NCBI GenBank assembly: GCA_963555705.1
Contig: OY743189.1
Span: 7,023,501-7,087,500 of the forward strand
DNA length: 64,000 bases
Origin: Ligustrum vulgare
Taxonomy: Eukaryota > Streptophyta > Magnoliopsida > Lamiales > Oleaceae
Direction: 5' to 3'
The first letter of the stretch is position 1; the number at the start of each line of letters is the position of its first letter. Positions 546-52,131 of the stretch are shown in pieces. The notes below the pieces were generated by a model that was not told the DNA's origin, searched no databases, and worked only from the letters and a program-made list of their open reading frames with translations. The position numbers and the translations under genes were made by a program.

Positions 546-557
546 TACCCTCCTTCT

Positions 558-2855: not shown

Positions 2856-3023
2856 TACCCTCCTTCTTTAAGATGATTCGTCCAGAATCATAGCTTTGTT
2901 CATGAATGTAACTGCTCCCCCTGGATCAAACGAAAAATTTCTCCTACCATTGCACATGATCAACCAAAAATATTCTGCAACGGGGGTCACGTGAATGGCT
3001 TGAAGTTGAAGCACCTTTGGACA

Positions 3024-3662: not shown

Positions 3663-4360
3663 ACCTCAATTTTTCCTCATAAATTTCCTTTTGAATCTTC
3701 AAAATTGCCTTAGGATCAATCTCGACTCCTCTCTTAACCCCAATTCCATCTCAGGATTTAGGATCACGCCTATAATGACTCTCATCACTACGATTTGCTT
3801 GAGATCGCCCCTTTTTAAATTTCCCCTCACTTTCATCTAGTTTATCCAACCTTATCAAAGCATCATTCAAAAATCTCCACATACGATCTTTATCATTATC
3901 ATTCCCCCTTCTAGATGGATATTTTTCTTAAAAATTGGACATTATAGAATTTATGTGGAACGGGATGGAAAAGAACAATAAACAAATGATCAAGAAATTC
4001 AAGAAAGTGGTTCTTGAATGGACTCTCTCTTTTTTTTTTCTTTTTGAATTTTGGATGAATTTTCGGAATAAAATAAATAAAAAAAATCTTTTTTTTTATA
4101 AATCCGAAAATTCGACAACGAACACGACAAAACAAACGGAACTTAATTCTGAAAGAATTAAGCAAAAAAACACTTTTGAAATTTTTTTTGGAACGATTTT
4201 CTAGATTAAAGACTCAACAAACTCAAGAACAAGAAGAACGCAAAAAACTGAAAATAAAACACTCAACAAGATATGAATGATTTTTATGAGACTCGATGAT
4301 AAACATAAAAATCAAACTGGATAGAAAAACTTGAATTCAGAGTCCAGCTTTGATACCTGA

Positions 4361-5165
4361 TGATGAGATTCGAAGCGGGGAAGAAACGTCAGAAAGTTCC
4401 GAACTCAGGTTGTGGTTGGACAGATGAATCATGACCCGATATTCACGACGCGATGGCACGATGATGCGGAATAAAGAACCACAAGTTTCGAAACGCCACA
4501 ATGATTTGCCCAATCTCCTTGATAAGTCTTTGATTTGAACGCCACAAATATTCTAGCAAATATTTGATAAGTTCGATATTTGAACGCCACAAGAAATATT
4601 CTTGATAAGTTCGAAAAACATATGAATCCACCTATAACTTTTATTGAATCCTCAACAAAAATTGTTTTAATCAAAATCAAATTTACATTACAATGAATGA
4701 AAAAAGCATATAAATAAACAAAATAAACTTAGCCGCTAATTTACTCAAAATAGAATTCTAATTAAACTAGAATACTAAATTAGGAAAATAACCTAAAAAC
4801 CAAAAAAGGAAACTAAATAATTAAAAATCCACAAAATCAGGCCGCTACTCAATTACGGCCTTAAATATCGGTCTTACGGCCATAAGCCCCTCTCTGGTCC
4901 AAAATTAATACCGCAGTTACGGCCGTAACGAATTTGATTACGGCCGTAAGTCACGTTCTGCCCAAAAATTACGATAACTGTGTTACGGAAGTAATTCCAA
5001 CGGTTACGTCCGTAAAAGGCACTCTGCTTAATTTTCTGGTTCTTTTCGACATGATTTGATCTTCAAAGCTCGTCAAACCTGCTGAATTCTTGTTTTGGCT
5101 TGAATATTTAAATTTTCCAGTCAAGCCTACTATGATTCGTATTATCGGGGTTCTGAATCACATCA
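4361..5165 (-). repeat. LTR 3 of the tandem array
   Basis: 805 bp, no difference from LTR 2 seen by eye, displaced by exactly 2310 bp. The palindrome cluster is at 4853-5015. Confidence 0.88.
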
Positions 5166-5333
5166 TACCCTCCTTCTTTAAGATGATTCGTCCAGAATCA
5201 TAGCTTTGTTCATGAATGTAACTGCTCCCCCTGGATCAAACGAAAAATTTCTCCTACCATTGCACATGATCAACCAAAAATATTCTGCAACGGGGGTCAC
5301 GTGAATGGCTTGAAGTTGAAGCACCTTTGGACA

Positions 5334-5972
5334 TTAGTGGTGTTGTCCAAATTTCCACACACCATTAACCTGCAAGAAAGAATTAAATAGAACGGGGAGG
5401 GAAATATTAGGTTCATGAGATACAAGGTATGGATCCCTGTATTCATGAATTATCACCGTCAATTCAACCTTTTGAACCACGAGGCCCTTCTCTTCACCTC
5501 TTTCTCCTTTTGCAACTTCTTGCTCACCCCCCTCTATCTCTTTTCTCTCAAGCTCGGTTACTTCATCTAACTCAAGATTTTCTAGCTCATCCACCTCTTC
5601 AATTTTTTTTCTTTCAAATTCAACAACATCTTCTACCTCTACATTCGTATCACCATGTTCGCACACTACCTCATCACTATCCAAATGTTGATCTACCAAT
5701 TCAAAACCCAAATTTTGAACTTCTACCCTAACTTCTAATTCTTCATCAAATTTTGGAGTTTGTTCACCTAACTCCACTTTTTCAATTCCTACCACAAAGT
5801 TCGGGGTCTCTTCAACTAATTTATGTCTCAAGCCTCTCTCCTTCTTTTCAAATTCCATATCCCGAGGCTCGACATGATTTTCACTCTCTTCTAACCATCT
5901 AATTACCGCCTTTCGTTTCTCCTCCTTCCTTTGTAATTTAGCTAAATATTTTATTTCCTGCCTCCCGTTCAC
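5334..5972 (-). pseudogene. Acidic 212-aa ORF of tandem unit 3
   Basis: The same 212-residue translation as the ORF of unit 2, displaced by 2310 bp, with the same truncating TAA and the same loss of the FDPGG tail. No independent mutation is visible, so units 2 and 3 separated very recently, or are one unit duplicated in assembly. Confidence 0.55.
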
Positions 5973-6670
5973 ACCTCAATTTTTCCTCATAAATTTCCTT
6001 TTGAATCTTCAAAATTGCCTTAGGATCAATCTCGACTCCTCTCTTAACCCCAATTCCATCTCAGGATTTAGGATCACGCCTATAATGACTCTCATCACTA
6101 CGATTTGCTTGAGATCGCCCCTTTTTAAATTTCCCCTCACTTTCATCTAGTTTATCCAACCTTATCAAAGCATCATTCAAAAATCTCCACATACGATCTT
6201 TATCATTATCATTCCCCCTTCTAGATGGATATTTTTCTTAAAAATTGGACATTATAGAATTTATGTGGAACGGGATGGAAAAGAACAATAAACAAATGAT
6301 CAAGAAATTCAAGAAAGTGGTTCTTGAATGGACTCTCTCTTTTTTTTTTCTTTTTGAATTTTGGATGAATTTTCGGAATAAAATAAATAAAAAAAATCTT
6401 TTTTTTTATAAATCCGAAAATTCGACAACGAACACGACAAAACAAACGGAACTTAATTCTGAAAGAATTAAGCAAAAAAACACTTTTGAAATTTTTTTTG
6501 GAACGATTTTCTAGATTAAAGACTCAACAAACTCAAGAACAAGAAGAACGCAAAAAACTGAAAATAAAACACTCAACAAGATATGAATGATTTTTATGAG
6601 ACTCGATGATAAACATAAAAATCAAACTGGATAGAAAAACTTGAATTCAGAGTCCAGCTTTGATACCTGA

Positions 6671-7475
6671 TGATGAGATTCGAAGCGGGGAAGAAACGTC
6701 AGAAAGTTCCGAACTCAGGTTGTGGTTGGACAGATGAATCATGACCCGATATTCACGACGCGATGGCACGATGATGCGGAATAAAGAACCACAAGTTTCG
6801 AAACGCCACAATGATTTGCCCAATCTCCTTGATAAGTCTTTGATTTGAACGCCACAAATATTCTAGCAAATATTTGATAAGTTCGATATTTGAACGCCAC
6901 AAGAAATATTCTTGATAAGTTCGAAAAACATATGAATCCACCTATAACTTTTATTGAATCCTCAACAAAAATTGTTTTAATCAAAATCAAATTTACATTA
7001 CAATGAATGAAAAAAGCATATAAATAAACAAAATAAACTTAGCCGCTAATTTACTCAAAATAGAATTCTAATTAAACTAGAATACTAAATTAGGAAAATA
7101 ACCTAAAAACCAAAAAAGGAAACTAAATAATTAAAAATCCACAAAATCAGGCCGCTACTCAATTACGGCCTTAAATATCGGTCTTACGGCCATAAGCCCC
7201 TCTCTGGTCCAAAATTAATACCGCAGTTACGGCCGTAACGAATTTGATTACGGCCGTAAGTCACGTTCTGCCCAAAAATTACGATAACTGTGTTACGGAA
7301 GTAATTCCAACGGTTACGTCCGTAAAAGGCACTCTGCTTAATTTTCTGGTTCTTTTCGACATGATTTGATCTTCAAAGCTCGTCAAACCTGCTGAATTCT
7401 TGTTTTGGCTTGAATATTTAAATTTTCCAGTCAAGCCTACTATGATTCGTATTATCGGGGTTCTGAATCACATCA
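6671..7475 (-). repeat. LTR 4, right end of the tandem array
   Basis: 805 bp, again apparently identical to LTRs 2 and 3. It ends CACATCA at 7475 and runs into unique DNA (TATATGCATC). Here no purine tract follows the LTR, so this is the outer 5' LTR in minus-strand sense. The partner target duplication lies outside the window. Confidence 0.87.
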
Positions 7476-8262: not shown

Positions 8263-9214
8263 TGATGAGATCCCAGTCGGGAAATCTCGTCAAAAACGCG
8301 GAATAAGGAAATTTAAATCCTAGGAAAGATCTAAATCAGATCTGACACAAAAAATAACAAGAACACGAATAAATAAACGGGAATTAAAAGATAGATTCGA
8401 CGATAAAACCTTGACCCAACAATCACGACGCAATTAATGACGATGCGGATTGAAGAACCAAGATTGGTGAACGCCACAAGGGTTGTCAATTCCTTGATAA
8501 GTTCGTTGAGTGAACGCCACAAAGAACGGATCTTTGATAAGCTCGAAACAAAAGGGAAAAACTCAACCTTTAACAAGGGGATCCTCTCTCAATTTAATTC
8601 ATAAACTCAAACTTGTTCCCCTTTTACAATGAATGGAAAGGAATATAAATAAGTAAAATAACCTAGCCTCTAATATACTCAAAATATAATTCTAATTAAG
8701 CTAAAATTCCAAATTATGCAAATAACTTAAAATAAAAAAAGGAAACAAAATAATTGGAAAATTCCCGGAAAATCTGGCGCTGCTTATTTATGGCCGTGAC
8801 GAACCCTTTTACGGTCGTAAAGGCCTTTCTGATCAAAAACTGATTTATTATTTACGGTCGTGACGAATTTCTTACGGCCGTGAAATTCCCCTTTTTTGAA
8901 TGTTACGGCCGTAACTTCCAAGCTTACGGTCGTAAGCCTCGTTCTGTTGAAATTCTCATTTTTTCTTCGCTAATTGATTACGGCCGTGATAACATGATTT
9001 ACGGCCGTGAATATATGGGTTACGGCCGTGAAGGTCCTCTTTTACGGCCGTAATGGAATTTCTGCCCAAATTACTTCGTTTTCTTGATTCGGCTCGATCC
9101 GTCCCTCTTCTCGGCTCGACCCCAACACGGAACTTGCTCTATTTTGCACGTAGATCACTGTCATATTGCCGATGGATCGAATTCGCCCTTCGATGCCTGG
9201 TCCGGATCACATCA
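8263..9214 (-). repeat. 3' LTR of the gag-only element
   Basis: 952 bp, TGATGAGATCCC...GGATCACATCA on the plus strand. It carries ten TTACGGCCGTAA-like palindromes at 8788-9053, many in steps of 21 bp. Confidence 0.9.
8788..9053. promoter_or_regulatory. Palindrome cluster in the gag-only element LTR
   Basis: Ten words of the TTACGGCCGTAA family start at 8788, 8809, 8852, 8872, 8903, 8924, 8978, 8999, 9020 and 9042. Within groups the step is 20-22 bp. The 5' LTR carries the matching cluster at about 12168-12435. Decayed copies mostly show C-to-T or G-to-A at the CpG steps. Confidence 0.65.
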
Positions 9215-21540: not shown

Positions 21541-21839
21541 TAATAGGGTTAAATAAGGAAATAATAATTAATTAATTATATTAAAATAATTGTTTTTCGT
21601 ATAAAAATTGGACCGGGTTAATAGGGTGGCGGCGGTTTAATCGATAAAAAAAAGGGAAAATTACATAAAACCTTGTGTTCCAAAGATACAATTCAAAAAT
21701 CATGTGAATGAAATCTTTTTTTTTTTAAATTCAGGTATTAATTCATTTAGTTAGGTGTTTAATAATTAAAAATAAATATAATGATATATATAAGATAAAC
21801 ATAATTATCTACTATATATTATATTAAAACTAATATAAT

Positions 21840-23557
21840 ATTAAATCAAAATTTCAAATTTTGACGTCTCACCTACCACCACCCCACCCCACCCTGCCCA
21901 TGCCCCGCCCACCACCCACCCCACCCACCCACCCCCACCCCAAAAATAATTTTTATTTTTTTCCTTTCGATGTTTTCATATCATTCCCCATCTCACCCTC
22001 ATCCCAACCCCAACCCCACTCGACCCTACCCAACCTCATTGTAAAGTGACAAATTCATATCACCCTAACCACATCCCCCGACCCCACCCACTCCAAAAAT
22101 AAGTTTATTTTTATTTTCTCTCGATATTTTCTTACACTTCCCCATCCCACTCCACCCAACCCAATCATACTCGACCCCACCCCACCGCAAAGTGACAAAT
22201 TGATCTCACACTCACCACATCCCCAGACTCCACCCACCCACCCTGCCCACCCACACCGCCCACCCACACCATCTCACCACCTATATCCTACCTCCCCAAA
22301 AATAAGTTTATTTTTATTTTTTTCCCAATGTTTTCTTACACTTCTCCATCCCACCCCACCCACCCCAACCCCAATCCACTCGACCCTACCGTACCCTACC
22401 TTATCGCAAAGTGACAAATTGATCTTATCCCAGCCACAGACCACCACCCTACCCCACCCAACCCTACATCAAAAATAATTTTTTATTTTTTTCATTTCGA
22501 TATTTTCCTATCATTCCCCATCCCACCCACCCTACCCCACCTCATCTTAAAGTGACAAATTAATCTCACCCTAACCACATCCTCCGACCCCACCACCCAC
22601 CCCCGCCTCACCATCCATATCCAACCCACCCCACCCCAAAAATAAGTTTATTTTTATTTTCTCTCGATATTTTCCTACACTTCCCCAACCCAACCCACCC
22701 CACCCCACCCCACCCCGACCTAACCCCACTTGACCCTATCCTACCCCACCTCATCGCAAAGTGACAAATTGATCTCACCCTAGCCACATCCCCCGACCCC
22801 ACCCACCAACCCAACCTCACCACCCATATCATATCCCACCCCAAAAATAAGTTTATTTTTATATTCTCCCGATATTTTCCTACACTTCCCCATCCCATCC
22901 CACCTCAACCCAACCCAACCCCACTCAACTCGACCCTACACTACTTCATCGCAAAGTGACAAAAATATTTTTTTTTCTTTCTACTTTTCCACCTACCACC
23001 ACCCAGCCCGACACCACCCTACCGATCCCACCCCCATCCCAAAAATGATTTTTTTCCATCTACTTTTTCACGCCCCCACCAACCCCACCCCAACACCACC
23101 CTGTCCACCCTACAAAATGAATTTTTTTTATCTCTCCATGTTTTCTCACCCTATCCTGCCACCCACCCCACCCAAAAATGATTTTTTTCTTCTAATTTTC
23201 TACACTCATCCCGCCCCTACCAGCTACCCACCCAGCCAATCGACTGGGCCCCACCCAAAAATGATTTTTTTTTCTTCCACTTTTTCACACCCCACCAAGA
23301 CCCTACCCTTGCACCCTCCCCACCATACCCACTCATCCCATTCCTACTCATCCCCCAGAAATGATTTTTTTCTTCAATTTTTCACACCCCCCCCACCTCG
23401 CTCCCGACCCTACCCCGCCACCCACCCAACCAACTGACCCCACCCAAAAATGATTTTTTTCCTACTTTTTCACACTCCATCCCGACCCTAAGCCCGTCAC
23501 CCAACAACCCCGCCACTACACACCCCACCAAAAATAATTTTTTTTCTTTTAAACACC
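21840..23557. repeat. C-rich minisatellite, left foldback arm
   Basis: Two unit types. From about 21880 to 22965 the units are about 140-220 bp and carry AAAGTGACAAATT (at 22043, 22189, 22408, 22549, 22758, 22952), CCCACCCC runs and AAAAATAAGTTTATTTTTA. From 22965 to 23557 shorter units of about 60-100 bp carry AAAAATGATTTTTTTC. All frames through it are composed of Pro/His/Thr-rich junk and are not genes. Confidence 0.8.
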
Positions 23558-23562
23558 CCGTC

Positions 23563-24407
23563 TGATGAGGACCGGAGTGGTATAAGTGGCACAACGAGTA
23601 AGGATCCGTTGCATATACCCGTGGGACCAGTAACGAGGCTGAGGACTAAGAAGATCAGGAAAGCAATGCAGGGGTTTATGCAAGCTTGGGTGGATGAATA
23701 TTCAAGTGCAAGGTCGAAGACTCCATTTTCAATGCATGACAAGTTGGAAGATGAGCCAAAACCGTTACAATGCATTTGGATCAAAGAACAAGGAGAAAAT
23801 AGTGCAGAAGGCCTTTTACGGCCGTAAGTTCTGGAATTACGGCCGTAACTTTGTTATCCCACGGCCGTAACTATCATTTTTCACAACCGTAATGGAGTTA
23901 TGCAATTTTTATTCAGAAGGTGACTTACGGCCGTATGAACACTTGTCACGGCCGTAAGAGTTAAGACAGTTTTGGACCCGAGGGTCAATTACGGCCGTAA
24001 GAATGATATTCACGGCCGTAAAATTGCGCCGAGTTTTATTTTTGGAATTTTTCAGCTAGGGTTATTTTGGACGCGATTTGGCACTATATTAGGTTTTCTT
24101 GGTCATTATAAAACTACAACTTTTATGATTAATAAGATTGATTGAATTAGGTGAGTTTATCCCTATTCTTCTTCGTTCTTGATTGAACCCCTTGAACTTA
24201 TCAAATGATTTGACAACCTTTGTGACGTTCACCCCTTTATGGTTCTTCATTCCGCATCTTAACGGGTCTTGGATTTGATACATCCTTGGTTCTTGAGTCG
24301 TGAGTGTCGGGTCATATTGTTATCGTCAATTAATCTGGATTTGGAACTTTCCAAGTGTTTATACAATTTCCGCGAGATCCCGTGATTCCCCAACAGGAAT
24401 CACATCA
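23563..24407 (+). repeat. 5' LTR of the gypsy element
   Basis: 845 bp, TGATGAGGACCGG...GGAATCACATCA. It contains the copy of the pol 3' tail (frame 23609-23827, ending LLRP) and the eight-palindrome cluster at 23816-24021. Confidence 0.96.
23816..24021. promoter_or_regulatory. Phased palindrome cluster, gypsy 5' LTR
   Basis: Eight words of the T(T/C)ACGGCCGTAA family start at 23816, 23837, 23859, 23881, 23925, 23946, 23989 and 24010: steps of 21, 22, 22, 44, 21, 43 and 21 bp. This places all sites on one helical face (two turns per step). One copy is decayed (TCACAACCGTAA). Confidence 0.75.
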
Positions 24408-24409
24408 TT

Positions 24410-24420
24410 TGGTATCAGAG
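24410..24420 (+). other. Primer binding site
   Basis: TGGTATCAGAG, two bases after the LTR end, complementary to the 3' end of initiator tRNA-Met as in many plant LTR elements. Confidence 0.85.
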
Positions 24421-25037
24421 ATTGGCTCTAAATCCAGGTTTTGGTATAATTCTTGTTTTGTCTAATTTTTTTCTTCATTAGATTTCATTGTTCTTGAGCC
24501 ATCATTGAATCGATAATAGATTCCTGGGTTTCTTGAAATTCTTCACTATTTCAAGATTGGTCGTAGTTTCAATTTTGTTATTATTGATTGTTCTTGATTA
24601 GTCAAAAAAAAAAAGTACGAAATTCAGATTAAAAAAAAAAGTGATTATTATTGAAGAGCACGATCAAGAACACAATTCCATATTCAAGAAGACCTTTCTT
24701 GATATCTTTTATTTTTCCCACATTCTTAGTAGTTTTCGTCATCCATCACTACTTTCAAATTCTTTCAATTCCAGTTACATCAATTTTCTTGAGTCCAATA
24801 TTCCATCAAATCTTCTTTTCATCTGTTTGTGTCTTGCACCTTGGGTTAATTCCACAAGGACCAAGTCCGTGACTAGTTTGGTGGGTTCTTTGAGAACTTA
24901 AGAAAAGGGATAGAGAGGAAAAAGGCAGAGTGGTGAGATCAATAGAGGGAAAAAGTCAAATAGAGTGAAAACACGAATGCTAAACACGTGAGGATATATT
25001 TTCTTGAAAATTATTTCTTTTCTTTTGATCACTAACC
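24421..25037 (+). other. Untranslated leader of the gypsy element
   Basis: About 0.6 kb between primer site and the gag ATG, AT-rich, with short frames without domain content. A packaging signal is expected here from retroelement biology but cannot be located by eye. Confidence 0.5.
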
Positions 25038-28000
25038 ATGTCACAGAAGGACGCATCATCGACAGGGGAGGATAACCAATAGTTCCACTTCCTTGCAATG
25101 CTGGAAAAACGATTCGAGAGGTGGGATGCGAAGTTGGAGGAGATTAAAAACTCCGTGGACACGCATAGTGCAGCAATTGCCCAACTACGAAGAGAGCAAC
25201 TGCATACGACTCCTAATATCCGGAGGCCGCAAAGGTATGAAAATAATCCTAGGAATAGAGTTTGGGATGATGATGATGTTGAGACAGGAGATAGTGTTGA
25301 CGATGATAGTGAAAGTGTATCAGTGGCTAGCTTGGGTAGGAGAAGAGGTCGTGGTGGTCGGCGTGGAAGAGGGAATAGGCGTGAAAATAAGGATGATGAT
25401 GGGATGGATAGAAGCTTAGGAAACATTAAAATGACCATACCAGCTTTCCAAGGGAAAAGTGATCCGGAGGTGTACTTTGAGTGGGAGAAGAAGGTAGAAC
25501 TGATTTTTGAGTGCCATAACTACTCAGAGGGGAAAAAGGTGAAGTTGGCGGTTATAAAATTCACAGACTATGCACTTGTGTGGTGGGATCAATTAGTGAC
25601 AAGTAGGAGGAGGAACCGTGAACAACCGATTGAGACCTGGAACGAGTTGAAGGGTTCGATGAGAAAAAGGTTTGTGCCCAACCATTACTATAGGGACTTG
25701 TACCAGAAACTCTAAACTTTGTCTCAGGGTTCGAAGAGTGTAGAAGAATACCATAAGGAGATGGAGATCGCTATGATTAGAGCAAATATTGAGGAGGATC
25801 CGGAGGCCACAATGGCCAGGTTTTTGAGTGGTTTGAACAGAAACATTGCAAATGTTATAGAACTGCAACATTATGTTGAGTTGGAGGAGATGTTGCACAT
25901 GGCGATGAAGGTGGAAAGGCAACTGAAAAGGAAAGGGACAGCAAAATACTCTTCGGGATCTACTCCTTGGAAACCTACGTGGAGTGGAAATAACAAAAAT
26001 GAAGGAGCTGCTCCAAAGGGAAAACCAGAACCACCGAAGGCTCGAGAGGAATCTACCAATAAAGGTAACCCCTCTTCTAACTCTCAACCTCCTAGAAGTA
26101 GGGACATCAAGTGTTTTAGGTGTATGGGAATCGGACACATTGCATCACAATGCCCGAACAAAAAAATAATGCTTGTGCAAAATGGGGTGGTTGTATCGGA
26201 GGATGAGGTTGAGGATGATGATGAGTTTAAGGATATGCCTGCCTTAGAAGAAGCTAGTGATTGTGACGATGGAGATTATGTTGTAGCTCAGTCCCTTATT
26301 ACTAGGCGTGCTCCTAGTACCCAAATTAAGGTGGAGGAGTCGGGTGAGCAAAGGGAAAACATATTCCATACTAGATGCTTTGTTAATAATAAAGCGTGTA
26401 GTTTGATAATTGATGGGGGGAATTGTACCAACGTGGTTAGTACCACTCTTGTTGAGAAATTGTGTTTACCCATAATCAAACACCCTAGGCCTTATAAATT
26501 ACAATGGCTGAATGAGTCTGGTGAGATCAAAGTGAATAAGCAGGTGTTGATCAACCTTTCTATCGGGAAGTATGAGGATGAGTTAATTTGTGATGTGGTT
26601 CCAATGCATGCTGGACACATCCTGTTGGGTCGGCCATGGCAATATGACAGGAGGGTGGTACATGACGGGTACAAAAATAGGTACAGTTTTACAAAGGATG
26701 GAAAAAGTACCAGACTTATGCCATTAACTCCGCAACAAGTTTACGAAGATCAGTTGAAATTAAAGAGTGAGGAAGAGAAGACAAAGAGAGTTGGGACCCC
26801 GATCCCAGAAAAAGGAGAGCTGAGTGTTCAAATGAGAGTTGGGAACACGATCCTAGAAAAATGTGAGCTGAGAGAAAAACAGAGAGTTGGGGGTTCCGCC
26901 CCAGAAAAAAGAGAGGGAGTGACGAGTGCCAGAAAAGAAAGAGGAGAGAAAACCAAAGTGAGCTTCCTTGTCAAAAAGTGTGAAATCAAAAGAGCTGTCC
27001 TTGACCACCAACCGATCGTCTTATTAATGTACAAGGAATCCTTCCTTGCAATCGATGACACTAACTCTTCCCTCCCCCGTTTAGCTGTTTCTCTTTTACA
27101 GGAATTTGAAGATGTATTCCCAGACGACATACCTAGTGGGCTGCCACCAATTCGGGGCATCGAGCACCAGATTGATCTTGTTCCAGGTGCTGTTATTCCA
27201 AATAGGCCTTCATATAGGAGCAATCCGGAAGAAACAAGGGAGCTTCGGCAAGTCGAGGAGTTGTTGAGCAAGGGCTATGTTCGAGAAAGCATGAGCCCAT
27301 GTACTGTGCCGGTCTTATTGGTGCCCAAGAAGGATGGAACCTGGAGGATGTGCATGGATTGTAGAGCTATCAACAATATCACGGTAAAGTATCGTCATCC
27401 CATACCTAGGTTAGACGACATGCTTGATGAATTATATGGTTCATGTGTCTTTAGTAAAATTGACCTTAAAAGTGGGTATCACCAAATACGCATGAAAGAG
27501 GGGGACGAATGGAAAACTGCATTCAAGACCAAATATGGGCTTTATGAATGGTTAGTTATACCGTTTGGTCTCACTAATGCACCTAGTACATTCATGAGGT
27601 TGATGAACCATGTCTTACGGGCTTTCATTAGAAAATTTGTGGTCGTGTATTTTGATGACATTTTAGTTTATAGTAAAAATGTAGATGAGCATGTTGATCA
27701 TTTAAGGTTGGTACTTGAGGTTTTACGCACTAAGAAATTGTTTGCTAACTTTAAAAACTGTACTTTTTGCATAGATAAGGTCATATTCCTTGGTTATGTT
27801 GTTAGTAAGGATGGTATTGAGGTTGACGAGGAAAAAATCCGAGCTATTAGAGAATGGCCTGTGCCTAAGAGTGTAACTGAGGTAAGGAGTTTTCATGGGT
27901 TAGCAAGTTTTTATAGGAGGTTTGTGAAAGATTTCAGTACAATAGTCACACCACTCACTAAGGTAATTAACAAGAGTGTGGGTTTCCATTGGGGGGATGC

Positions 28001-29981
28001 ACAGGAAAATGCCTTCAAATTGCTTAAAGATAGGCTATGTTCTGCACCAGTCTTAGCATTACCTAATTTTAACCAGACTTTTGAGGTTGAATGTGATGCA
28101 TCAGGAATAGGAATTGGAGCCGTTCTTATGCAGGAAAAGAGGCCGATAGCTTATTTCAGTGAAAAGCTGAGCGGGGCAGCGTTGAACTATCCAACGTATG
28201 ATAAGGAGCTTTATGCTCTTGTCAAGGCATTGGAAACTTGACAGCATTACCTCTGGCCAAAAGAATTTGTCATCCACATGGATCACGAGTCATTAAAGCA
28301 CCTCAAGGGGCAAGGTAAGTTGAACAAAAGACATGCCCGATGGATGGAGTTTGTGGAGACTTTTCCTTATGTCATTCAATACAAACACGGTAAGGAAAAT
28401 ATAGTTGCAGATGCGTTGTCAAGAAGGTATGTGCTCCTTAATTCATTGAATGCTAAATTGTTGGGATTTGAATATGTTCGACACTTCTATGCTAACGATC
28501 ATGATTTCTCCACTATTTATGTCTCATGCGAAAAGGGATCATTTGATAAATTTTACAGGCACGATGGTTATTTGTTTAAGGAAAACAAATTGTGTGTGCC
28601 TAACTGTTCTATGCGTGAGTTGTTAGTACGTGAAGCTCACGGTGGGGGTTTGATGGGTCATTTTGGTGTTTTTAAAACATTGGAAACATTAAGGGAACAT
28701 TTTTATTGGCCTGGGATGAAACGGGATGTTCACCAAATTTTTGATAAATGCATAACTTGTAAACAGGCTAAGTCTAAGGTTTTGCCACATGGTTTGTATA
28801 CCCCTTTACCTGTTCCTAGTGAACCTTGGGTAGATATATCCATGGATTTTGTTTTAGGATTGCCTAGGACAAACAAAGGTCGGGATTCCATATTTGTGGT
28901 GGTGGATAGGTTTAGTAAAATGGCACACTTCATTCCTTGCCATAAAACTGATGATGCCGTGAACATAGCAGACTTATTCTTTAGGGAAGTTGTCAGACTA
29001 CATGGGGTGCCTAGGAGTATAGTATCTGACAGAGATGTCAAATTCCTTAGTTACTTCTGGAAGGTTCTGTGGGGGAAAATGGGTACTAAACTATTGTTTT
29101 CCACTACATGCCATCCTCAAACGGATGACCAAACAGAAGTAGTCAATAGGACGTTAACACAACTCTTGCGTGTTGTCATAAATAAAAATTTGAAGCATTG
29201 GGAGGAATGTTTACCATTTGTGGAATTTGCTTATAACAGGGCTATACATTCTACTACTACTTACTCTCCGTTTGAAATTGTGTATGGTTTCAATCCGCTA
29301 ACCCCTATGGATCTAATTCCTTTGCCTGTAGATGACAGGAACAGTTTAGATGGCAAGAAGAAAGCCGAGCTTGTGAAGTCACTCCATGAAAAGGTCAGGC
29401 TACAAATAGAAAGGAAGAATGAGCATTATGCGTCCCATGCGAATAAGGGCAGAAAGCAGGTGATTTTTGAACCAGGCGATTGGGTGTGGGTTCACTTGCG
29501 AAAGGAATGATTTCCAACACAACAAAAATCTAAGCTGCAGCCTAGAGGAGATGGGCCGTTTCAAGTCATTGAAAGAGTCAATGACAATGCTTATAAGTTA
29601 GATCTCCCAGGTGAGTATAATATATCTGCTACTTTCAACATTGCTGATCTCTCCTTGTTTGATGCAGGTGATGATTCGAGGACGAATCATTTTCAACAGG
29701 GAGGGAATGATGAGGACCGGAGTGGCATAAGTGGCATAAGTGGCACAACGAGTAAGGATCCGTTGCATGTACCGGTGGGACCAATAACGAGGCTGAGGAC
29801 TAAGAAGATCAGACAAGCAATGCAGGGATTTATGCAAGCTTGGGTGGATGAATATTCAAGTGCAAGGTCGAAGACTCCATTTTCAATGCATGACAAGTTG
29901 GAAGATGAGCCAAAACCGTTACAACACATTTGGATCAAAGAACAAGGAGAAAAGAGTGCAGAAGGCCTTTTACGGCCGTAA
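25038..29981 (+). pseudogene. Gypsy gag-pol polyprotein, one frame with four internal stops
   Basis: A single frame from ATG 25038 to TAA 29979-29981 (1647 codons), with stops TAG 25080, TAA 25713, TGA 28239 and TGA 29508 but no frameshift. Each stop is one transition away from the expected codon (CAG, CAA, TGG, CGA). Domains: gag capsid core (YALVWWDQLV, RFVPNHYYRDLYQKL), zinc knuckle [14 protein letters not shown] at 26112-26153, protease [12 protein letters not shown] near 26406, RT with [10 protein letters not shown] at 27648, RNase H ([14 protein letters not shown] to VADALSRR), integrase HHCC zinc region (HGGGLMGHF to CITCKQAK) and catalytic D 28845, D 29028, E 29136 in D-D-35-E spacing. 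The tail GPITRLRTKKIRQAM extends into the 3' LTR. The element copies itself through RNA. This copy cannot make a full polyprotein. Confidence 0.95.
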
Positions 29982-30561
29982 GTTCTGGAATTACGGCCGT
30001 AACTTCGTTATCGTACGGCCGTAACTATCATTTTTCACGGCCGTAATGGAGTTATGCAATTTTTATTCAGAAGGTGACTTACGGCCGTAAGAACACTTGT
30101 CACGGCCGTAAGAGTTAAGACAGTTTTGGACCCGAGGGTCAATTACGGCCATAAGAATGATATTCACGGCCGTAAAATTGCGCTGAGTTTTATATTTGGA
30201 ATTTTGCAGGTATGGTTATTTTGGACGCGATTTGGCACTATATTAGGTTTTCTTGGTCATTGTAAAACTACAACTTTTATGATTAATAAGATTGATTGAA
30301 TTAGGTGAGTTTATCCCTATTCTTCTTCGTTCTTGATTGAACCTCTTGAACTTATCAAAGGATTTGACAACCTTTGTGGCGTTCACCCCTTTATGGTTCT
30401 TCATTCCGCATCTTAACGGGTCTTGGATTTGATACATCCTTGGTTCTTGAGTCGTGAGTGTCGGGTCATATTGTTATCGTCAATTAATCTGGATTTGGAA
30501 CTTTCCAAGTGTTTATACAATTTTTGCGAGATCCTGTGATTCCCCAACAGGAATCACATCA
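29708..30561 (+). repeat. 3' LTR of the gypsy element
   Basis: 854 bp. The 9 extra bases against the 5' LTR are a local duplication of GCATAAGTG near 29725. The last 274 bp of the gag-pol frame lie inside it. Confidence 0.96.
29970..30175. promoter_or_regulatory. Phased palindrome cluster, gypsy 3' LTR
   Basis: The same eight sites at 29970, 29991, 30013, 30035, 30079, 30100, 30143 and 30164 with the same 21/22-bp phasing. The decayed copy is a different one here (TTACGGCCATAA at 30143). The first palindrome supplies the gag-pol stop codon. Confidence 0.75.
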
Positions 30562-31231
30562 CCGTCTCAACCCTATACCCGTCACCCACCAACCCCACCC
30601 CTACCCAAAAATGATTTTTCTTCTTTTAATTTTCCACACCCCGTCCCTACCCCGCCACCCACCCAACAAACCGACCCCACCCAAAAATGATTTTTTTCTA
30701 TACTTTTCCTCGTTCAATGGTCACAAAAAGTTATAGTTTGTCACATATTATTTATTTATTTCGTCACAACTTGTTTTTTTTCATGATTAGTTAATATTTT
30801 TTGTCATAATTACCTAATAATTGGTCACATTCCCTACTCGTCATAAGTCACACAAAGTCACATTTAATCGACATTTTAGTTACACTAACCTAATAATTTG
30901 ATCACCCGACCCTACCCGACCCTACCCTACCCTACCCCACCCCCACATGCAAAGTCACAATATGTCACACAATTGGTCACACAATGTCACATTACAAATT
31001 TAGTTGAAAAACCTCACCCACCTCCCCACACATTCCTAATGTCACAGTTGATTACACAAGGTCATAGTTTGATCACACAAGGTCATAGTTTGGTCGCGCG
31101 AGGTCACAGTTAGATCACAATTGGTTTAGTTGCAAAATTCGATCACACAAAGTCACAATTCGATCATATAAAGTCACAGTTGGTCACACAAAGGCACGGT
31201 TCGATCACACAAGGTCATAGTTTGGTAACAC
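30562..31231. repeat. Left foldback arm, inner part after the gypsy insertion
   Basis: Starts with the second copy of the CCGTC duplication, continues the CCCACCC/AAAAATGATTTTT minisatellite to about 30710, then changes to repeats of GTCACA, TGGTCACACAA and GGTCATAGTTTG up to the centre. Confidence 0.75.
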
Positions 31232-31248
31232 ATGTGACCAAACTATGA
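31215..31248. repeat. Central hairpin of the foldback element
   Basis: TCATAGTTTGGT at 31215-31226 is exactly complementary to ACCAAACTATGA at 31237-31248, with a 10-base loop (AACACATGTG). The orientation of the surrounding GTCAC repeats reverses here. Confidence 0.85.
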
Positions 31249-33430
31249 CATCGTGTGATTGAACTATGACCTTGTATGACCGAATTGAGACTTTTTGTGA
31301 TCGAACTGTGACCTTGTATGTTCAAATCGTGACTTTGTGTGATCAAGTACGGGATGTGACCAAAATATTTACTAATTGTGACTTGTGAGAAATGGGGGAT
31401 GTGACCAAGAAAACTAAGAATACGGAATGTAACCAAATATTATGTAATTGTAACAAAAATGTTAACTAATTGTGATTGAGGAAATATGTTAATTATGACC
31501 AATAAATAAATAATACGTACCAACTATATGATAATTTTGATCAATTGTAGGTAAATGTGATCAAAATATTGACAAATTGTGAGTTTGTGCGACTTATGAT
31601 AAGTGGGGATGTGATCAAGAAAAACAAGTAAGTTTTGATCAATCAATAAATAAATTGTGATCAATTATTGATGACTATGACCAATTATTAGGTAACTATG
31701 ACCACTAAATAAATAATATGTAATCAATTATGGATCATTGTGACCAATTATATAGATTGTGACCAACTGTGACTTGGTGTGACCATTGGACGAGGACGTG
31801 ATGTGACCTACAATTGTGTCAAATATAACTATGTGTGACTGAATGGTGACTTTGTAAGAACGAAGCGTGACTTTATGTGATCGACCTTTGACCTAGTGTG
31901 ATCTAACCATGACCTCGTTTGACCTAATTGTGACCTAACTGTGACCTCGTTTGACCAAAATGTGACTTTGTGTGATCGAATTTTGACCTTGTGTGACCAA
32001 CTGTGACTTTGGAGGGGTGGGATTTTACAACTAAATGTGTAATTGTGACTCTGTATGACCTTGTGTGACTTAATTGCGATATCGGGTCAACTTACGTTAT
32101 TGATTGTGATTTTGGGGTTGGGGATAGTGGGGTAGAGGTCGGGTGGGGCTAGAAAAAGTAGAAGAAATCATTTTTTATGGTGATGTAGGGTCGGAGTTGG
32201 AAAAGTAGAAAAAAAAAAATCATTTTTTTGGGTGGGTAGGGGTAGGTAGGGTGGGGTGGGTCAGGGTGGGGAAAAGTAGAAGAAAAAAATAATTTTTTGG
32301 AGTGGGGTGGGTGGGTAGGGTGGGGTCGAGATCGGGTTGGAGGTTGGAAAAAGTAAGAAAAAAATTATTTTTTGCGTTGGTGGGTGCGTGCGTGGGGTGG
32401 GGTGGGTTGAGATGAGGTGGTTGGTGTGAAGTGTGAAAAAATAGAAGAAAAATAATTTTTTGATGGGGTATAGTTGGTGGCGGGGTGCGGTGGGATGGGG
32501 TGGGGTGGTTGGGGAGAAGTGTGAAAAAATAAAAGAAAAATCATTTTTTGATGGGGGGTAGGGTGGGTGGGTGGGTAGGGTGCAATGGGATAGGATGGGG
32601 CGATTGAGATGAAGTGTGAAAAAATAGAAGAAAAATCATTTTTGGGTGGGGAGGGTTGTGGTGGGGTTGCTAGGGTGGGGTGTAGTGGGGTTGTTAGAGT
32701 GGGGTGTGAAAATATAGAAGAAAAATCATATTGGGGTGGGGTGGGTGGCGAGGTAGGGTCGGGGAGAGGTGGGTAGGGGTGTGAAAATATAGAAGAAAAA
32801 TCATATTGGGGTGGGGTGGGTGGCGAGGTAGGGTCGGGGAGAGGTGGGTAGGGGTGTGAAAAATTAAAAGAAAAAAATTAATTTTGGGTGGGGTGGGGTT
32901 GGGGATGGGTGGCGTGGCAGGGTCTGGGCGAGTCGTAAAAAAGTAGTAAAAAAAATCATTTTGGATGAGGTGTGTTGGGGTAGGGTATGGGGCGACGCTG
33001 GTGGGGGAGTCGAATATTAGAAGAAAAAAATTAATTTTGGGTGGGGTAGGATATGGTAGGTCTGGGCGAATTGTGGAAAAGTAGTAAAAAAAATTCATTG
33101 TTGGTGAGGTGAGGTGGGGGGGTAGGGTATGGTCGGGTGGGGTGGGAAGGGTGGAAAAATATCTCAAAAAAAAAACTTATTTTTGGGGTGGGGTGGGTGG
33201 GGTGAGAAAAAAATAAAAGTAAAATCATTCTTGTGGTGTGGTGGGTTGGGTTGGGGAGGAGTGGGGTGGGGTGGGTAAGGTGGTGTTGGGCGTGGGGGTG
33301 AGTGGGGAAAAGTAGAAATAAAAAATTATTTTATGGGCTGGGTGGGGGTGGGGTCGGGGAGGGTTGGGTGGGGGGGGTGGGTTGTCGGGGTGGGTGGGGT
33401 GAGTGCGGGGTTGGATTGGGATGAAGTTGT
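31232..33430. repeat. Right foldback arm: GTGAC repeat then G-rich minisatellite
   Basis: From 31237 to about 32090 the words TGTGACC, TTGTGTGATCGAA and CTGTGACTTTG dominate, the reverse complement of the left inner arm. From about 32100 to 33430 units of about 60-110 bp combine GGGTGGGGTGGG with AAAAAGTAGAAGAAAAATCATTTTT. The plus strand has dozens of closely spaced G-tracts. Confidence 0.8.
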
Positions 33431-33629
33431 TGTGGATAATGTATTGTTTTGATTTTATTATTTAATATTAGTCTTTGTTTGGCAACTCATTATTATAATT
33501 ATTATAATATTATATTAATTAATTAACTAATTAATACCTTATTTAAAAAAAAAAATATTAAGTTTGTTATGTTTAAAAAGTGAAAGTTTTAGTTGTATAA
33601 TTATGTACTTTTCCCTAAAAAAAATCTGT

Positions 33630-45839: not shown

Positions 45840-45908
<69 letters not shown>

Positions 45909-47580
45909 AATTGCAAACTTGGCATAAACGAATGATGATCAATAGAGAGAGGAGTAAATTTTAGCAAAAACGGATGTCTGGAAAATAATTTAGAATAGTC
46001 ATCACAAGAGCAAATGAGAGAGGGATTCTGGTTCATTTGTATTGAGGAACATGTGAAGTTCAGTTTTGATTTTTCGAGAAAAAAGTGCAATGTGAAACTT
46101 AAAATAAGAGCACCATCATTTCAACCTTACACAATGCTAAGAAGTCAGAGTACAAAGCAATTAATAAAGAATCTTACTTCTCAAGCTTTATATAGACACT
46201 TGTAGCAGCACGATATAGATCAAAGGCCATTTGTTCCTTTCCATCCTCTTCAAGAGCATCACAAGCATCGGTGTAAAGCTGAATAGCTTCCTCAGGTGCA
46301 ATATCTTCTAAAGCACTTTAAGAAACACAGCAGTTTTATGAAAATCAACTATTACAAATAGAGAATTGAACTTAATGTAGATATTAAGTAAAAAGGTTAG
46401 AACATATAGAGAAGTAGCGGCAAAAAAGATTGAAATTCAAGTATTTCACTCTCAAAATATTACAACATGCACTTAATTGATGTTTCAAAACATCAAACAT
46501 CATTATAACATTGTCTTTACCAGATCAAGCAATCTGCAATTTTGCACAACTTAAAAATCATAATGTCTAATTAATATACAGTCATACGACATATATATAT
46601 GACAAAGAATAATTATAACAAATTGTCTATCAAATGAAGGAATTCCTCAAAATGTAATATTGCAGGCATAAATACTACTACGACCAGAAGAGAGCATAGC
46701 ATTTCATACCGAGCACCCTTTGCAAGTGCGTCTGATGCAGGTTGTGACCTTCCACACTCAGTATACAATTCAGATGCATGTCGAGAAAATTCAGACACTT
46801 CTTTCCAGTTGCCTACTTCCTTTGCAAGAACAGCTGCAGATTCCATATGCTTCGCGGCATCCCAAGGCCTGACTCGCTCGTCAAGGTTTCCAACATTATA
46901 CAACAAGATAGTATATAAATCCATTAGATTACTTGTATTAATTGAAGGATAAAAAACTTGGATACGAAGAGAGCATTTCTTGTCCTCTCGCAGCTTTCTC
47001 AAATGCCTCTTTTGCTTTCTCATATTTTTTCGCCAGCCTATAAGCATTTGCTGCCACATAAGAATGAAACACATTTGAACTAATAAAAAAAATCGCATAC
47101 ATAAAATTGCTCCAAATATAATTCCTTTTCTTTAACCTCATATACGTTACATCAAACATACCCGCCTGCTCATACAGAACTGTGGCACCCTTCCAATCTG
47201 CAGTCCATCTTGTCATACTGAGTTTTGTTCTATAAAATTAAATGGAAAAAATACAAGGAAAAAAAGAAAGAATTTTTAACATAATTAGTCTACTATTTGA
47301 CTTAAGGAAACGATCATATTGAACATAAAACTGACACTGGTTTCTACTCGGATTTAGATCAATTATTTGATTGATTGCCTCATATAACAATATTTTAGGA
47401 TATTGAAGCCCCCGAACAACATAATCATCCAGCGTAATGCAGTTATTATATAAAATTAATCAATATAAACTCGATAAAAAGTTCAGATTAACTGTAAATT
47501 ATATCTAATAAAATAGAAAAGAGTAAAACTGACAGTTTATCGGCTTTGGCGATCAACTTGTCTGGATTGGAATTGGCCAT
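42658..47580 (-). CDS. GSNAP: Gamma-soluble NSF attachment protein (gamma-SNAP)
   Basis: Adaptor that links NSF ATPase to SNARE complexes for disassembly after membrane fusion. It is cytosolic and membrane-peripheral. Exons on the minus strand: 47580-47534, 47229-47162, 47050-46966, 46868-46710, 46315-46178, 45496-45418, 44294-44215, 43359-43230, 42759-42658. They total 888 nt (295 aa plus stop), all with GT-AG borders and consistent phase. It starts MANSNPDKLIAKADKL and continues through TPR-like helical repeats (GATVLYEQA, SPWDAAKHMESAAVLAKE, YTECGRSQPASDALAKGARA, CKAYLSAIIVYLYAHDFQQA). It ends with the acidic LDEDDLT tail known for SNAP proteins to contact NSF. Length and wording fit plant gamma-SNAP rather than alpha-SNAP. 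Introns hold a (GA)n tract and a CCGGTT-rich repeat. No defect seen. Confidence 0.95.
44735..45150. repeat. CCGGTT-rich dispersed repeat in gamma-SNAP intron 6
   Basis: Repeated GGTTCAACCAGGAAAAT and AACCGGTTCGACC words, in the opposite orientation to copies at 18640 and 20795. It lies wholly within an intron. Confidence 0.5.
45842..45902. repeat. (GA)n microsatellite in gamma-SNAP intron 5
   Basis: About 30 uninterrupted GA dinucleotides on the plus strand, hence (TC)n in the transcript of the minus-strand gene. Confidence 0.97.
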
Positions 47581-48360: not shown

Positions 48361-49695
48361 AATAAAGAGGAGTTTAATTTCATAAATGATAAGTAAACAA
48401 ATTTTAACTTACAAGTAACATATAAAACTTCAATTTCTCAAAAGATGAGTATCAAGAAATTAACTTCACAAACTACAAATCTCAAATTAAATCAATTGAA
48501 GTCAAATAATTTTGAAATTTTTTTGGACCAAATTATTTGAACTGAGAAATGGACAGGCCCAAATGTGTGAACTCAATTTTTTTTTGGGGATTTCGCACTG
48601 ATACCCATGAATGAAACTCTATTTATGGAGAATATTAGTATCAAGAATTACTTTGATTAAATACCATCTTACCTTTAAAATATTTGTAAATATATCATCC
48701 AGTATCTCGTGTTAAAGAAATTGCAATAATTTAATATTTATTTATTAATTAGTTACAACATTAGACTGATCAAATTGTAACCGTCAAACATTATCCTGTA
48801 ATCCCACTAATTTCGTTACCATGGGTCCTCCATCATCGCTGCACTTAGTTGGGACAGAATATTCAGATTTCACAGCAGACTGTAACATTCATTTTCATCC
48901 CTGCAAACCATGATAAGCTCAGATTTTGTATTATACGGTCTGTGAACTTTATCCTATAGTCAATGATCAAATAACTTGCCTGGTGAATTCATCCAAGATT
49001 ATTGTTTGAGAATTGAATAAAGAAGCCTGCAAACTCCGTAACTGATTATTCATAATCATTCGTTGCCGTTGAAAAGCTCAAATGCATAACCGCTAAAAGA
49101 ACGCGATGCTTTTCAGTTATATTGAGCGAGTGAATCTTCATCAAAGTACACAATACATTCTGCTACATCATGCTATCACAGGCTGTGTTCAAATATTGAA
49201 GTTAAAAAATAACACTGCCTTTGTACTGTTGAAACGTGAGAATATCGAATTGATTTTTGCTGGGGGAGTAATTGTCATATCAATAGTTTCTTTCCATTGT
49301 TACAGGTATGCTTATTACCATTAATAGTCGATGGATTAGATTGACGTTATCGTGTGGTAAACTGGTTATACATTGATGCCTGATTTTGCATTGTAAGTAG
49401 CGTACACAGTCCTGTAAATAATTTTGTTTTATTGAACTGAAACTTGACACCAAATTATTTTACTATATGTATGGAATTTAATATTTGATAAAAGAACATG
49501 TAGTCCGTGTCTTTGTTTAAACATCATCTTGCCTTCAATATAGTTACAGTGATCTGTGTTATGAAACTTACTCCATTGACAGTGTTGTTACATATTTGGG
49601 TCGCAAGTATATGAGATCTTCACACTTGAATCCAGTAAATATGTTATACGAAGAGTACATAAGCTAATTGTAATTAATATGTAATGATCCAGGAA
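48361..49695. other. Upstream region of the Mutator transposase pseudogene
   Basis: Non-coding. From 48586 (GGGGATTTCGCACTG after nine T) it has the look of a MULE terminus. A word at 48677-48702 resembles, in reverse orientation, one near 60016-60045. The TIRs are not resolved, so element limits are uncertain. Confidence 0.3.
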
Positions 49696-52131
49696 ATGGC
49701 TGGTTTGATGGTTTTCATGTACTTTGGAGGTGTATGGGATGACTCCAATAATTATAAAGACTACTATGTGCGTGGCCTTATAGTGCCCATGGACTGCTCG
49801 CATGACAAGTTAGTGGAGTTAATAGCTGCGCAGCTTCGACAAGAAGCTTTTAGGAATCGCTTCTTATTAAACTATCAGGTATTTGAACAGGGTCCTCTCA
49901 TACCAATTTCAGATGATACATCACTGGATTTTTATATTCAATTGAAGAGGGGAGAAAATGATAAGAGAACCTATCCTATATGTGTTGATATTTTACCTAA
50001 TGAAGAAATGGAGTATTGTGATACCACATTGTCAGATGCAATAACCGTGGATAGGAACGCTGGTGTAGTACATCACAACATAGATAACGAGTATGATGAA
50101 TTGGCATATGAGTGGGACCAAAGAAACCCTAGTATTGAAGAAATGGGAATGGAGTTATCTGAATATATAAATATACAGGTGGATGAATCAGATGAATTGA
50201 TGTCTCAAGTAATTTCGACCCCTAATATTGAAGAGGTTAGGAAAGGATCTATTTTCAAGAGCAAGGAGATACTTATCGCTACTATCTCGATGCTGGCAAT
50301 ACGGAATAGATTCCAATATAAAGTACTGAAGTCGGACTGCAAGTTTTATTGGCTAAAGTGCCATGAAGAAGGGTGTGATTGGTTATTCAAGTCATCAAGA
50401 ACAGACTCGAGAGGAAATTTTAAGATAAGAGAAATGAATAACATACATACGTGCTCTATGGACTCTGCCTTGGGCTATCATAGGCAGGCTACTAGTTTCG
50501 TGATTACTGTTTTTATAAAGCACAAGTTTCTCTCTTCGAGAAGAATTTATACTCCCATCGACATAGTAGATGACATGAAGCATTCATATGGTATCAATGT
50601 TAGTTACGACAAGGCTTGGAGAGCACGTGAGCGTGCGATAAGGATTATTAGAGGTGATTCAGACGAGTCATATGGAAACCTTCCAGCCTATATGCATAGG
50701 TTGGAAGTTGTTAATCCTGGTTCTTATACTAGAATTGAAATTGATGCTAAAGGGCGGTTTTTGTTTAGTTTTGTGGCGTTGGGGGCCTCTATAGCTGGGT
50801 GGAAGCATTGCAAACCTGTAATCGTAGTTGATGGTACATTCTTAACGAGTCGAAATGGTGGTACTCTTTTCACAGCATCCACACAGGATGCGAATAATAA
50901 CATATTCATTCTTGCTTTTGGAGTAGGTGATGCTAAAAACAACAATGCTTGGGAGTGGTTCATGTTAAGATTAAAAGAAGCATATGGCGATCGAGATGAT
51001 CTGTGCATTGTGTCTGATCGGCATGGTAGTAATGCTCACGCAGTTGATACTATATACCCAAATGCTCTTCATGGAGCTTGTACTTACCACTTGTTACAAG
51101 ATTTGAAGAAGGAGTTTGGGAAGAGGGGTAAAGGGATGAGAGTACCATTTAATGCTGCATCGAGAGCATACACAATACCTGAATTTCATGAGAACATGAT
51201 TAAGTTGGATTCAATTCACAAAGGAATCAGAGGATACTTGGTATGACTATTTACTATGTAAATTGTATTATCTTAGTAATAATTTGAAAATATTTGTTAT
51301 GACTTTAATATATACCTGCAGGAGGCAATAGGTTTTGAGAGGTGGTCCAAAGCGCATATGACTAAGAATAGGTTCTCTACTATGACATCCAACATCGCAT
51401 AATCTGTGAACTCTGCCATTAAACATGCGAAGAATTACCCCATCGAAGCACTATATGAGTGCTTAAGGTGTACATTTCAAAGATGGTTTTTTCAAAATCT
51501 ATGTGATGCTAAATCTACGTTCACAATTCTTGCAACACGTTACGATAAAATGTTGAAGGATAGAATCAGATTGTCGAGACGATATCGGGTAAAAAAATGC
51601 AAATTTTGAAATACGACCAGCTTAATGAATATTGTTATAATAAAATTATTCTTGCAGGTGCAGCCTTCGAGCGACAAGGTATACCAAGTGATTGATGAAA
51701 CATCATCATATGTTGTGGATATTGAGAATAGGTCTTGTACTTGTCGTCGATTTCAGTTGGACTAAATACCATGTCCACATGCAGTACCAGTCATCGCTAG
51801 CCGAAACTTCAAGTTATCCGATTATTGCTCAAAATATTTCAGTAAAGAAGCTTACCTTGCTGCATATTCGGGTAATGTGTATCCTCTTGGAAACAAAGAG
51901 GAATGGATCACACCAATTGAGATTAAGCAACAAACAGTGCTTCCACCGATTTGCAAGCGTAGCCCTGGAAGACCAAAAGAGAGTAGGTTCAAATCTTGTT
52001 TGGAGTACAAGAAGAGTTCTCGTTGTGGGAGGTGCAATGCACTTGGTCACAACACCAGGACTTGCCGTAATTCCAACGGTGATAGCCATAGTAAAAGTAA
52101 CAAAAGAAAGAGGCCTCCAATAGGGAAATAA
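49696..52131 (+). pseudogene. Mutator-like (MURA) transposase, two internal stops
   Basis: Three exons, 49696-51240, 51322-51588 and 51658-52131, joined by GT-AG introns in phase. N-terminal part (MAGLMVFMYFGGVWDD), a MuDR-type DNA-binding region with HTC (about residues 190-260), and a MULE transposase core with catalytic D379 (VVDGTFL) and D441 (IVSDRHGS) and a CTYHLL motif. Then SWIM zinc finger CTCRRFQLD...PCPHA, C-terminal knuckle CGRCNALGHNTRTC, and basic end KSNKRKRPPIGK. A TAA at 51400-51402 interrupts SNIA-SVNSAIK. Another at 51763-51765 falls between the SWIM Cys and His ligands. Start chosen at the ATG after a likely 5'-UTR acceptor (CCAG). It would cut and paste MULEs, but this copy is inactive unless read through. 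The Ulp1-like gene faces it tail to tail. Confidence 0.88.

Follow-up and report, generated by a model that had tools for sequence, protein, structure and literature searches.

Element boundaries and anatomy

The window analyzed here is a stretch of 64,000 nt from Ligustrum vulgare (assembly GCA_963555705.1, contig OY743189.1, positions 7,023,501 to 7,087,500 of the forward strand). Between positions 21654 and 33615 it contains a foldback element, a large palindrome of inverted repeat arrays bounded by an exact 9-bp duplication that can be read directly in the sequence: TAAAAAAAA is present at both 21645–21653 and 33616–33624. The left end, GGGAAAATTACATAA at 21654, and the right end, GGGAAAAGTACATAA when read inward from 33615, are terminal inverted repeats (TIRs) identical at 14 of their outer 15 bases; further in, the alignment is only loose. 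A long terminal repeat (LTR) retrotransposon is nested in the left arm, and without it the element measures 4,958 bp. These ends, the flanking duplication and a length of ~4.96 kb had all been proposed in the initial annotation of the window, and all three proved correct. The element is real, and is an unusually large form of the foldback type of Mutator-like elements (MULEs). Its parts, in window coordinates, are these:

21645–21653, no strand: left copy of the target site duplication (TSD), 9 bp, TAAAAAAAA, read directly
21654–21880, + strand: left terminal domain, AT-rich, 227 bp, starting GGGAAAATTACATAA; first 200 bp 94–97% identical (mean pairwise) among ten full copies
21881–22953, + strand: outer left arm, C-rich array of ~150–205-bp units, 1.07 kb, for which the right side offers few strong inverted matches
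22954–23562, + strand: inner left arm, part 1, C-rich array with a unit length of ~80 bp, related to the right arm in inverted orientation
23558–23562, no strand: left copy of the nested LTR element's 5-bp duplication, CCGTC
23563–30561, + strand: nested gypsy-type LTR retrotransposon, outside the foldback element proper
30562–30566, no strand: right copy of CCGTC
30567–30707, + strand: inner left arm, continuation beyond the nested insertion
30708–31232, + strand: center, left half, GTCAC repeats with a period of ~21 bp
31229–31236, no strand: dyad CACATGTG, axis at 31232/31233
31233–32117, + strand: center, right half, GTGAC repeats, with an AT-rich interruption at ~31380–31800
32118–33437, + strand: right arm, G-rich array of ~75–95-bp units, 1.3 kb, with G-quadruplex-type motifs
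33438–33615, + strand: right terminal domain, AT-rich, 178 bp, ending TTATGTACTTTTCCC
33616–33624, no strand: right TSD copy, TAAAAAAAA

The two sides of the axis are of similar length, ~2.57 kb on the left and 2.38 kb on the right, and the inner left array, split by the LTR element, totals 0.75 kb. Outside the LTR element, the sole frame of at least 150 aa—frames were read without a domain scan—is a low-complexity one of 157 aa in the right arm. The LTRs of the nested element are 845 and 854 bp long, and differ by 29 mismatches over 845 aligned bases plus one 9-bp gap. They contain repeated palindromes of the type TTACGGCCGTAA, and a related repeat occurs at 8978–9032.

Foldback symmetry

The symmetry is sharpest at the center, where GTCAC occurs 16 times to the left of the axis and never to the right, and GTGAC occurs 21 times to the right and never to the left. 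Only 2 nt separate the nearest inverted arms at the dyad. Both this near-zero spacer and the order of the repeats are as first described. Over the element as a whole, inverted matches to other parts of it cover 4,228 of the 4,958 positions at E ≤ 1e-4; when two-letter words were shuffled within 200-bp blocks, the corresponding number was zero in nine of ten shuffles and 69 in the other. Raising the stringency to E ≤ 1e-10 leaves full coverage in the inner left array, 1,139 of 1,320 positions in the right arm and 875 of 1,410 in the center, but only 163 of 1,073 in the outer left array and none in either terminal domain. The initial description of the element as 'almost wholly a hairpin' is thus an overstatement for the outer left array and the terminal domains. 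The longer arm alignments are ~65–75% identical and occur in many registers, so that the description can be accepted only in a loose sense.

Folded as DNA, the whole element reaches –969 kcal/mol, versus –536 to –598 in four composition-keeping shuffles and –714 when its right half is merely reversed; composition alone therefore explains much of the pairing. The foldback nevertheless exceeds what composition gives. A 301-bp stretch centered on the axis has a fold energy of –65, versus a shuffle mean of –35 (z –8.7), a value reached in none of 100 shuffles. Long inverted repeats that consist largely of tandem repeats, and arms separated by scarcely any unique DNA, are features of foldback elements, and both are present.

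The family in the genome

The first 301 bases of the element were used to search the same genome (1.385 Gb, 51 contigs). Among the best 40 of 1,356 first-look candidates, left-end matches were confirmed at all 40 places scored, at 100% identity in the window and 89–94% in the 39 others; an additional 41st row is a second, partial match within one of the 40. Coming from the best-scoring end of the candidate list, these 40 places are a lower bound. Twenty-six of the 39 others were fetched, giving 27 elements with the window copy, and in 24 of the 26 a right-end match lies inside the fetched stretch. One of the other two (L023) enters other DNA after 429 bases, and the second (L034) extends beyond the stretch fetched. 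Such a search had been set beforehand as one of two tests of the initial annotation, and its outcome favors that annotation: both ends, the order of the domains and the 9-bp duplications described below are common to copies elsewhere in the genome.

Repeat number and length differ between copies, as is also usual of foldback elements, and the lengths of 19 copies range from 3,356 to 8,923 bp, the longest ones through LTR-type insertion. Four copies (L016, L021, L022 and L024) carry long unmatched inserts, whose longest frames, up to four in each, appear by eye, with no domain search, to be of LTR type. None of these frames resembled a MULE transposase, again judged by eye and in the unmatched inserts only. 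In L030, at 101–463, bases 156–227 of the left terminal domain occur a second time ~60 bp inward, which resembles an incipient duplication of the end.

Either strand of the element pairs a C-rich arm with a G-rich one. In all 15 elements tabulated, the left arm is C-rich (C ~0.4 in most twelfths) versus a G-rich right arm (G mostly 0.35–0.5, with a maximum of 0.60). Predicted G-quadruplex-type motifs number 9–19 in the right arm and 5–20 in the complement of the left, compared with shuffle means of 0.8–5.3, although shuffling itself breaks G runs. The tables of composition, arm similarity and inverted coverage, and the search for the dyad described below, cover elements other than L016, L017, L021, L022, L023 and L024.

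Target site duplications and an empty site

Twenty-five elements—the window copy and 24 fetched ones—have both ends and can be examined for TSDs. An exact 9-bp duplication flanks 15 of them (12 plus 2 fetched copies, and the window copy) and four more match at 8 of 9 positions, so that 19 of 25 match at 8/9 or better. When flanks were deliberately mispaired, 2 of 342 pairs matched at 8/9 and none at 9. Exact duplications of 6–8 bp and of 10–13 bp were found in none of 19 copies. That the A-rich duplication of the window copy is weak evidence by itself was acknowledged at the outset, and we agree; other copies, however, bear more complex ones, AATCTATAA and TTACAATTA for example. If the start of the element is shifted two bases earlier (GAGAAAA), the duplication becomes exact in L022 and matches at 7/9 in L026. 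With the register of L022 so corrected, the GC content of 17 duplications is 9.8%, versus 32% in the flanks; the first base is T in 12 of the 17, and the ninth is A in 13.

The copy in L026 is particularly informative. It interrupts the right end of another family member, 32 bases in and in the opposite orientation; this self-nested insertion is at oriented positions 367–7421 of L026. Once its two flanks are joined, the resulting sequence aligns without a break at the junction to right ends at 22 other loci (21 of them fetched, plus the window), as well as to L026's own right end; the letters of nine of these 22 uninterrupted loci were compared directly at the join. The target repeat is 9 bp long with two differences. 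The target of L026 is thus a paralogous empty site. For the other 18 elements the fetched sequence gave no match spanning the joined flanks, as it should if the comparison is confined to loci of the family.

Age, with a probable burst and decay

Compared in blocks of 100 bp, ten full copies share 85–97% identity. The first 200 bp and the center are in general the most alike, while the arms are less so and have the larger gap fractions. In the right terminal domain identity is 0.90–0.91, not above that of the arms. A tree of 13 copies, based on the left terminal domain and the center (1,637 columns), is star-like: its terminal branches sum to 0.309, versus 0.026 for the internal ones. Such a tree suggests a burst, followed by the independent decay of each copy. 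The mean Kimura two-parameter distance among ten copies is 0.050. Usual plant substitution rates are 0.7–1.3 × 10^-8, and at these rates the divergence suggests a burst some 2–3.5 million years ago. The divergence of the LTR pair in the window copy, 3.4%, is consistent with insertion of the nested element after the burst.

The dyad, sought in 21 of the 27 elements, is kept in 18 (13 of 15, and 5 of 6), and in 10 of the 13 for which its position was measured it lies no more than 3% from the midpoint. Three shortened copies, L009, L018 and L026, have lost the inner left arm, and two of the three have lost the dyad as well. Most of the foldback went with these losses: at E ≤ 1e-10 the three retain 577, 153 and 143 inverted positions, compared with 2,927–4,026 in ten copies of 4.7–5.1 kb; L019 (2,382) and L015 (1,804) fall between. 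Per base, the longer copies fold at –0.19 to –0.21 and the three shortened copies at –0.16 to –0.18. The hairpins, it appears, decay after the burst.

Two processes that might have kept the arms matched find no support. Homogenization between the arms of one copy would make them more alike than the arms of different copies, but in 12 copies own-arm and between-copy scores are the same, with means of 67.3 versus 68.4 near the dyad and 105.4 versus 102.9 in the arms. A copy's own partner arm ranked first in only 1 of 12 cases near the dyad and 3 of 12 in the arms, and was otherwise scattered down to rank 12. Selection for the center hairpin through compensatory change fares no better: change on both sides was found in 1 of 97 predicted pairs, and the covariation term was unfavorable.

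Long spacerless palindromes are generally considered unstable during replication. Here, a palindrome with sides of ~2.4–2.6 kb has apparently transposed and increased in number with its axis kept. The many copies of similar age offer a chance to measure the rate of palindrome loss, and the deleted derivatives are natural test pieces.

Classification and proposed mechanism

MULE target duplications range from 8 to 11 bp, and the features of Mutator present here are a TSD of ~9 bp and TIRs. Nine-bp duplications are usual for MULE transposases (PMC3169594), and most foldback elements are assigned to Mutator in the account of Tetris (PMC4079207). The ends, the length of the duplication, the empty site and the lack of a long coding frame together suggest that the element is non-autonomous and is mobilized in trans. 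We consider it likely, with some confidence, that this 4,958-bp element of inverted repeat arrays was mobilized by a Mutator-type transposase supplied from elsewhere. The initial interpretation, a Mutator-type foldback element, is borne out to this extent: the foldback and the 9-bp duplication fit the superfamily, by an indirect link.

Several observations weigh against this interpretation. No transposase gene with these ends is among the sequences examined, and Mutator membership is therefore argued, indirectly, from the duplication length and the ends. The well-matched terminal repeat is short, and the rest of the terminal domains aligns poorly. Conservation of the right terminal domain does not exceed that of the arms, which does not favor this domain as a strong binding site. 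Six of the 25 elements lack a duplication at 8/9 or better: L017, whose right end is cut off, L021, L022, L026, L030 and L032. And because the copies sampled are those with the best-scoring left ends, their identity and intactness are biased upward.

If we read the element correctly, a transposase from an autonomous relative would bind the terminal domains, and possibly also sites repeated in the arms, excise or copy the element, and join it into a 9-bp staggered cut. Targets would be AT-rich, with a preference for T at position 1 and A at position 9. The arms probably grew and shrank by slippage and unequal exchange, and the palindromic center was probably fixed before the burst and inherited whole. 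Copies would then have decayed one by one, as point changes accumulated, the inner left arm or center was deleted, and LTR elements inserted. A search for a motif, like a binding site, common to the terminal domains and arms found only matches of 10–19 bases, the best at E 0.009; a search of Rfam gave no match.

A bolder proposal, which we regard as doubtful, is that the palindrome itself drives amplification. A zero-spacer palindrome of ~5 kb, its C-rich arm facing a quadruplex-prone G-rich arm on either strand, would extrude or fold on replication or excision; its arrays would load many transposases and hold the ends together; and in this way a non-coding giant could outcompete ordinary copies in a burst. 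The family is well suited to asking whether G-rich tandem arrays in a transposon act as docking sites for transposase.

Other explanations are less attractive than movement by a Mutator-type enzyme. The element might have been mobilized by the transposase of another superfamily—of the hAT, P or Merlin type, for instance—that makes a staggered cut of close to 9 bp. Foldback shapes have arisen in several transposase lineages, and Galileo, of the P superfamily, has long repetitive inverted repeats (PMC3688188, PMC4079207). No transposase in the data at hand is tied to the ends of our element, which leaves room for such an enzyme, but the 12 exact duplications are all 9 bp, with none of 19 copies at 8 bp or at 10 bp. 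To our knowledge, Mutator alone of the common plant superfamilies typically gives duplications of 9 bp, and we consider a transposase of another kind unlikely.

Silencing, rather than movement, might explain the shape, the palindrome being kept since its hairpin RNA feeds small-RNA silencing. The strong fold of the center would suit this idea, and there is a possible parallel in maize, where Mu killer is proposed to act through a hairpin RNA of ~4 kb (PMC3440606). The near absence of two-sided change among the predicted center pairs and the failure of same-copy arms to be more alike than arms of different copies argue the other way, and make this explanation quite improbable.

An accident, finally, in which two opposed minisatellites or solo ends were joined by rearrangement beside a chance A-rich repeat, draws on the low complexity of TAAAAAAAA in the window copy, and we dismiss it: the ends and domain order are shared with other copies, and the TSD statistics and the L026 empty site rule out both coincidence and a joining of solo ends.

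Other features of the window

A MuDR-type transposase frame (PF10551, PF03108) lies elsewhere in the window, at 49684–51246 (+), and a DUF1985 frame at 57881–58576 (–); the two are perhaps parts of one larger MULE, with no clear terminal repeats found around them. Among the 65 matches listed for the transposase frame, 19 are from olive (33–58% identity) and the other named ones are from plants. This transposase finds no support as the partner of the foldback element: no pair of GGGAAAATTACATAA-type ends was recognized around it. An end-like match with one mismatch occurs at 45358, 4.3 kb before the frame, but no inverted partner for it was found. With up to three mismatches the window contains nine end-like matches, of which two are the ends of the element itself and four belong to a single tandem array; the chance mean is 3.6, and nine were reached in 1 of 100 shuffles.

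A tandem array with a period of ~2,310 bp spans ~163–7107. One 212-aa frame occurs in it twice without change, at 3024 and 5334, and one 16-base word four times, at 163, 2472, 4782 and 7092. An exon-like frame at 46613–47098 (–) is gamma-SNAP-like by eye, with no Pfam match, and near it, at 45842–45903, is a GA microsatellite of 31 copies.

Comparison with known systems

FARE of Arabidopsis, Tnr8 of rice and SoFT of tomato are likewise plant foldback elements. FARE1 is classed among the MULEs in the account of MuTAnT (PMC4486113). No description of this family was recognized in the literature searched, in which most subscription papers were out of reach, and a search for foldback elements together with G-quadruplexes returned no paper. 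The systems that follow are compared as they appear in the portions of their accounts available.

Elements close to ours are known from animals and plants. Tm1, a Mutator/Foldback element of root-knot nematodes, is an animal element with 13–15-bp units, and its inverted repeats average 93% identity within one element; one Tm1 element encodes a MULE-type transposase, and no pairing of C-rich with G-rich arms appears in the description (PMC3169594). Tetris, of Drosophila virilis, is similar in that its long inverted repeats (up to 1,735 bp) comprise tandem repeats set between a flanking and an inner domain; it makes 8–10-bp duplications, has no known transposase, and owes its place in Mutator to evidence of the same indirect kind. 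It differs in having units of ~220 bp, three structurally complete copies, and a variable middle domain in place of two bases (PMC4079207). MuTAnT, of Medicago truncatula, is likewise a plant MULE of foldback shape that folds into a hairpin, and has 218 copies. Unlike our element, 90% of these are 200–300 bp, the targets are TA microsatellites, and there is a putative autonomous partner with a mudrA-like transposase (PMC4486113). The tandem-TIR MULEs of tomato, Arabidopsis, rice and maize share duplicated terminal repeats and amplification, but their TIRs come in an external and an internal copy, those that amplified measure ~1.3–1.4 kb, and neither arrays nor a palindrome figure in their description (PMC3310237).

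Galileo, of Drosophila, is instructive in another way. One transposase site has been footprinted near its end, and further sites have been identified in the tandem repeats of its long inverted repeats (PMC3688188). Galileo belongs to the P superfamily, and the model of arrays that bind transposase would carry over to our element by analogy. Set beside Tm1, Tetris, MuTAnT and the tandem-TIR MULEs, as these are described, the Ligustrum element stands out in its size, in its two-base axis, in the opposition of C-rich to G-rich arrays, and in its copy number for so large a palindrome.

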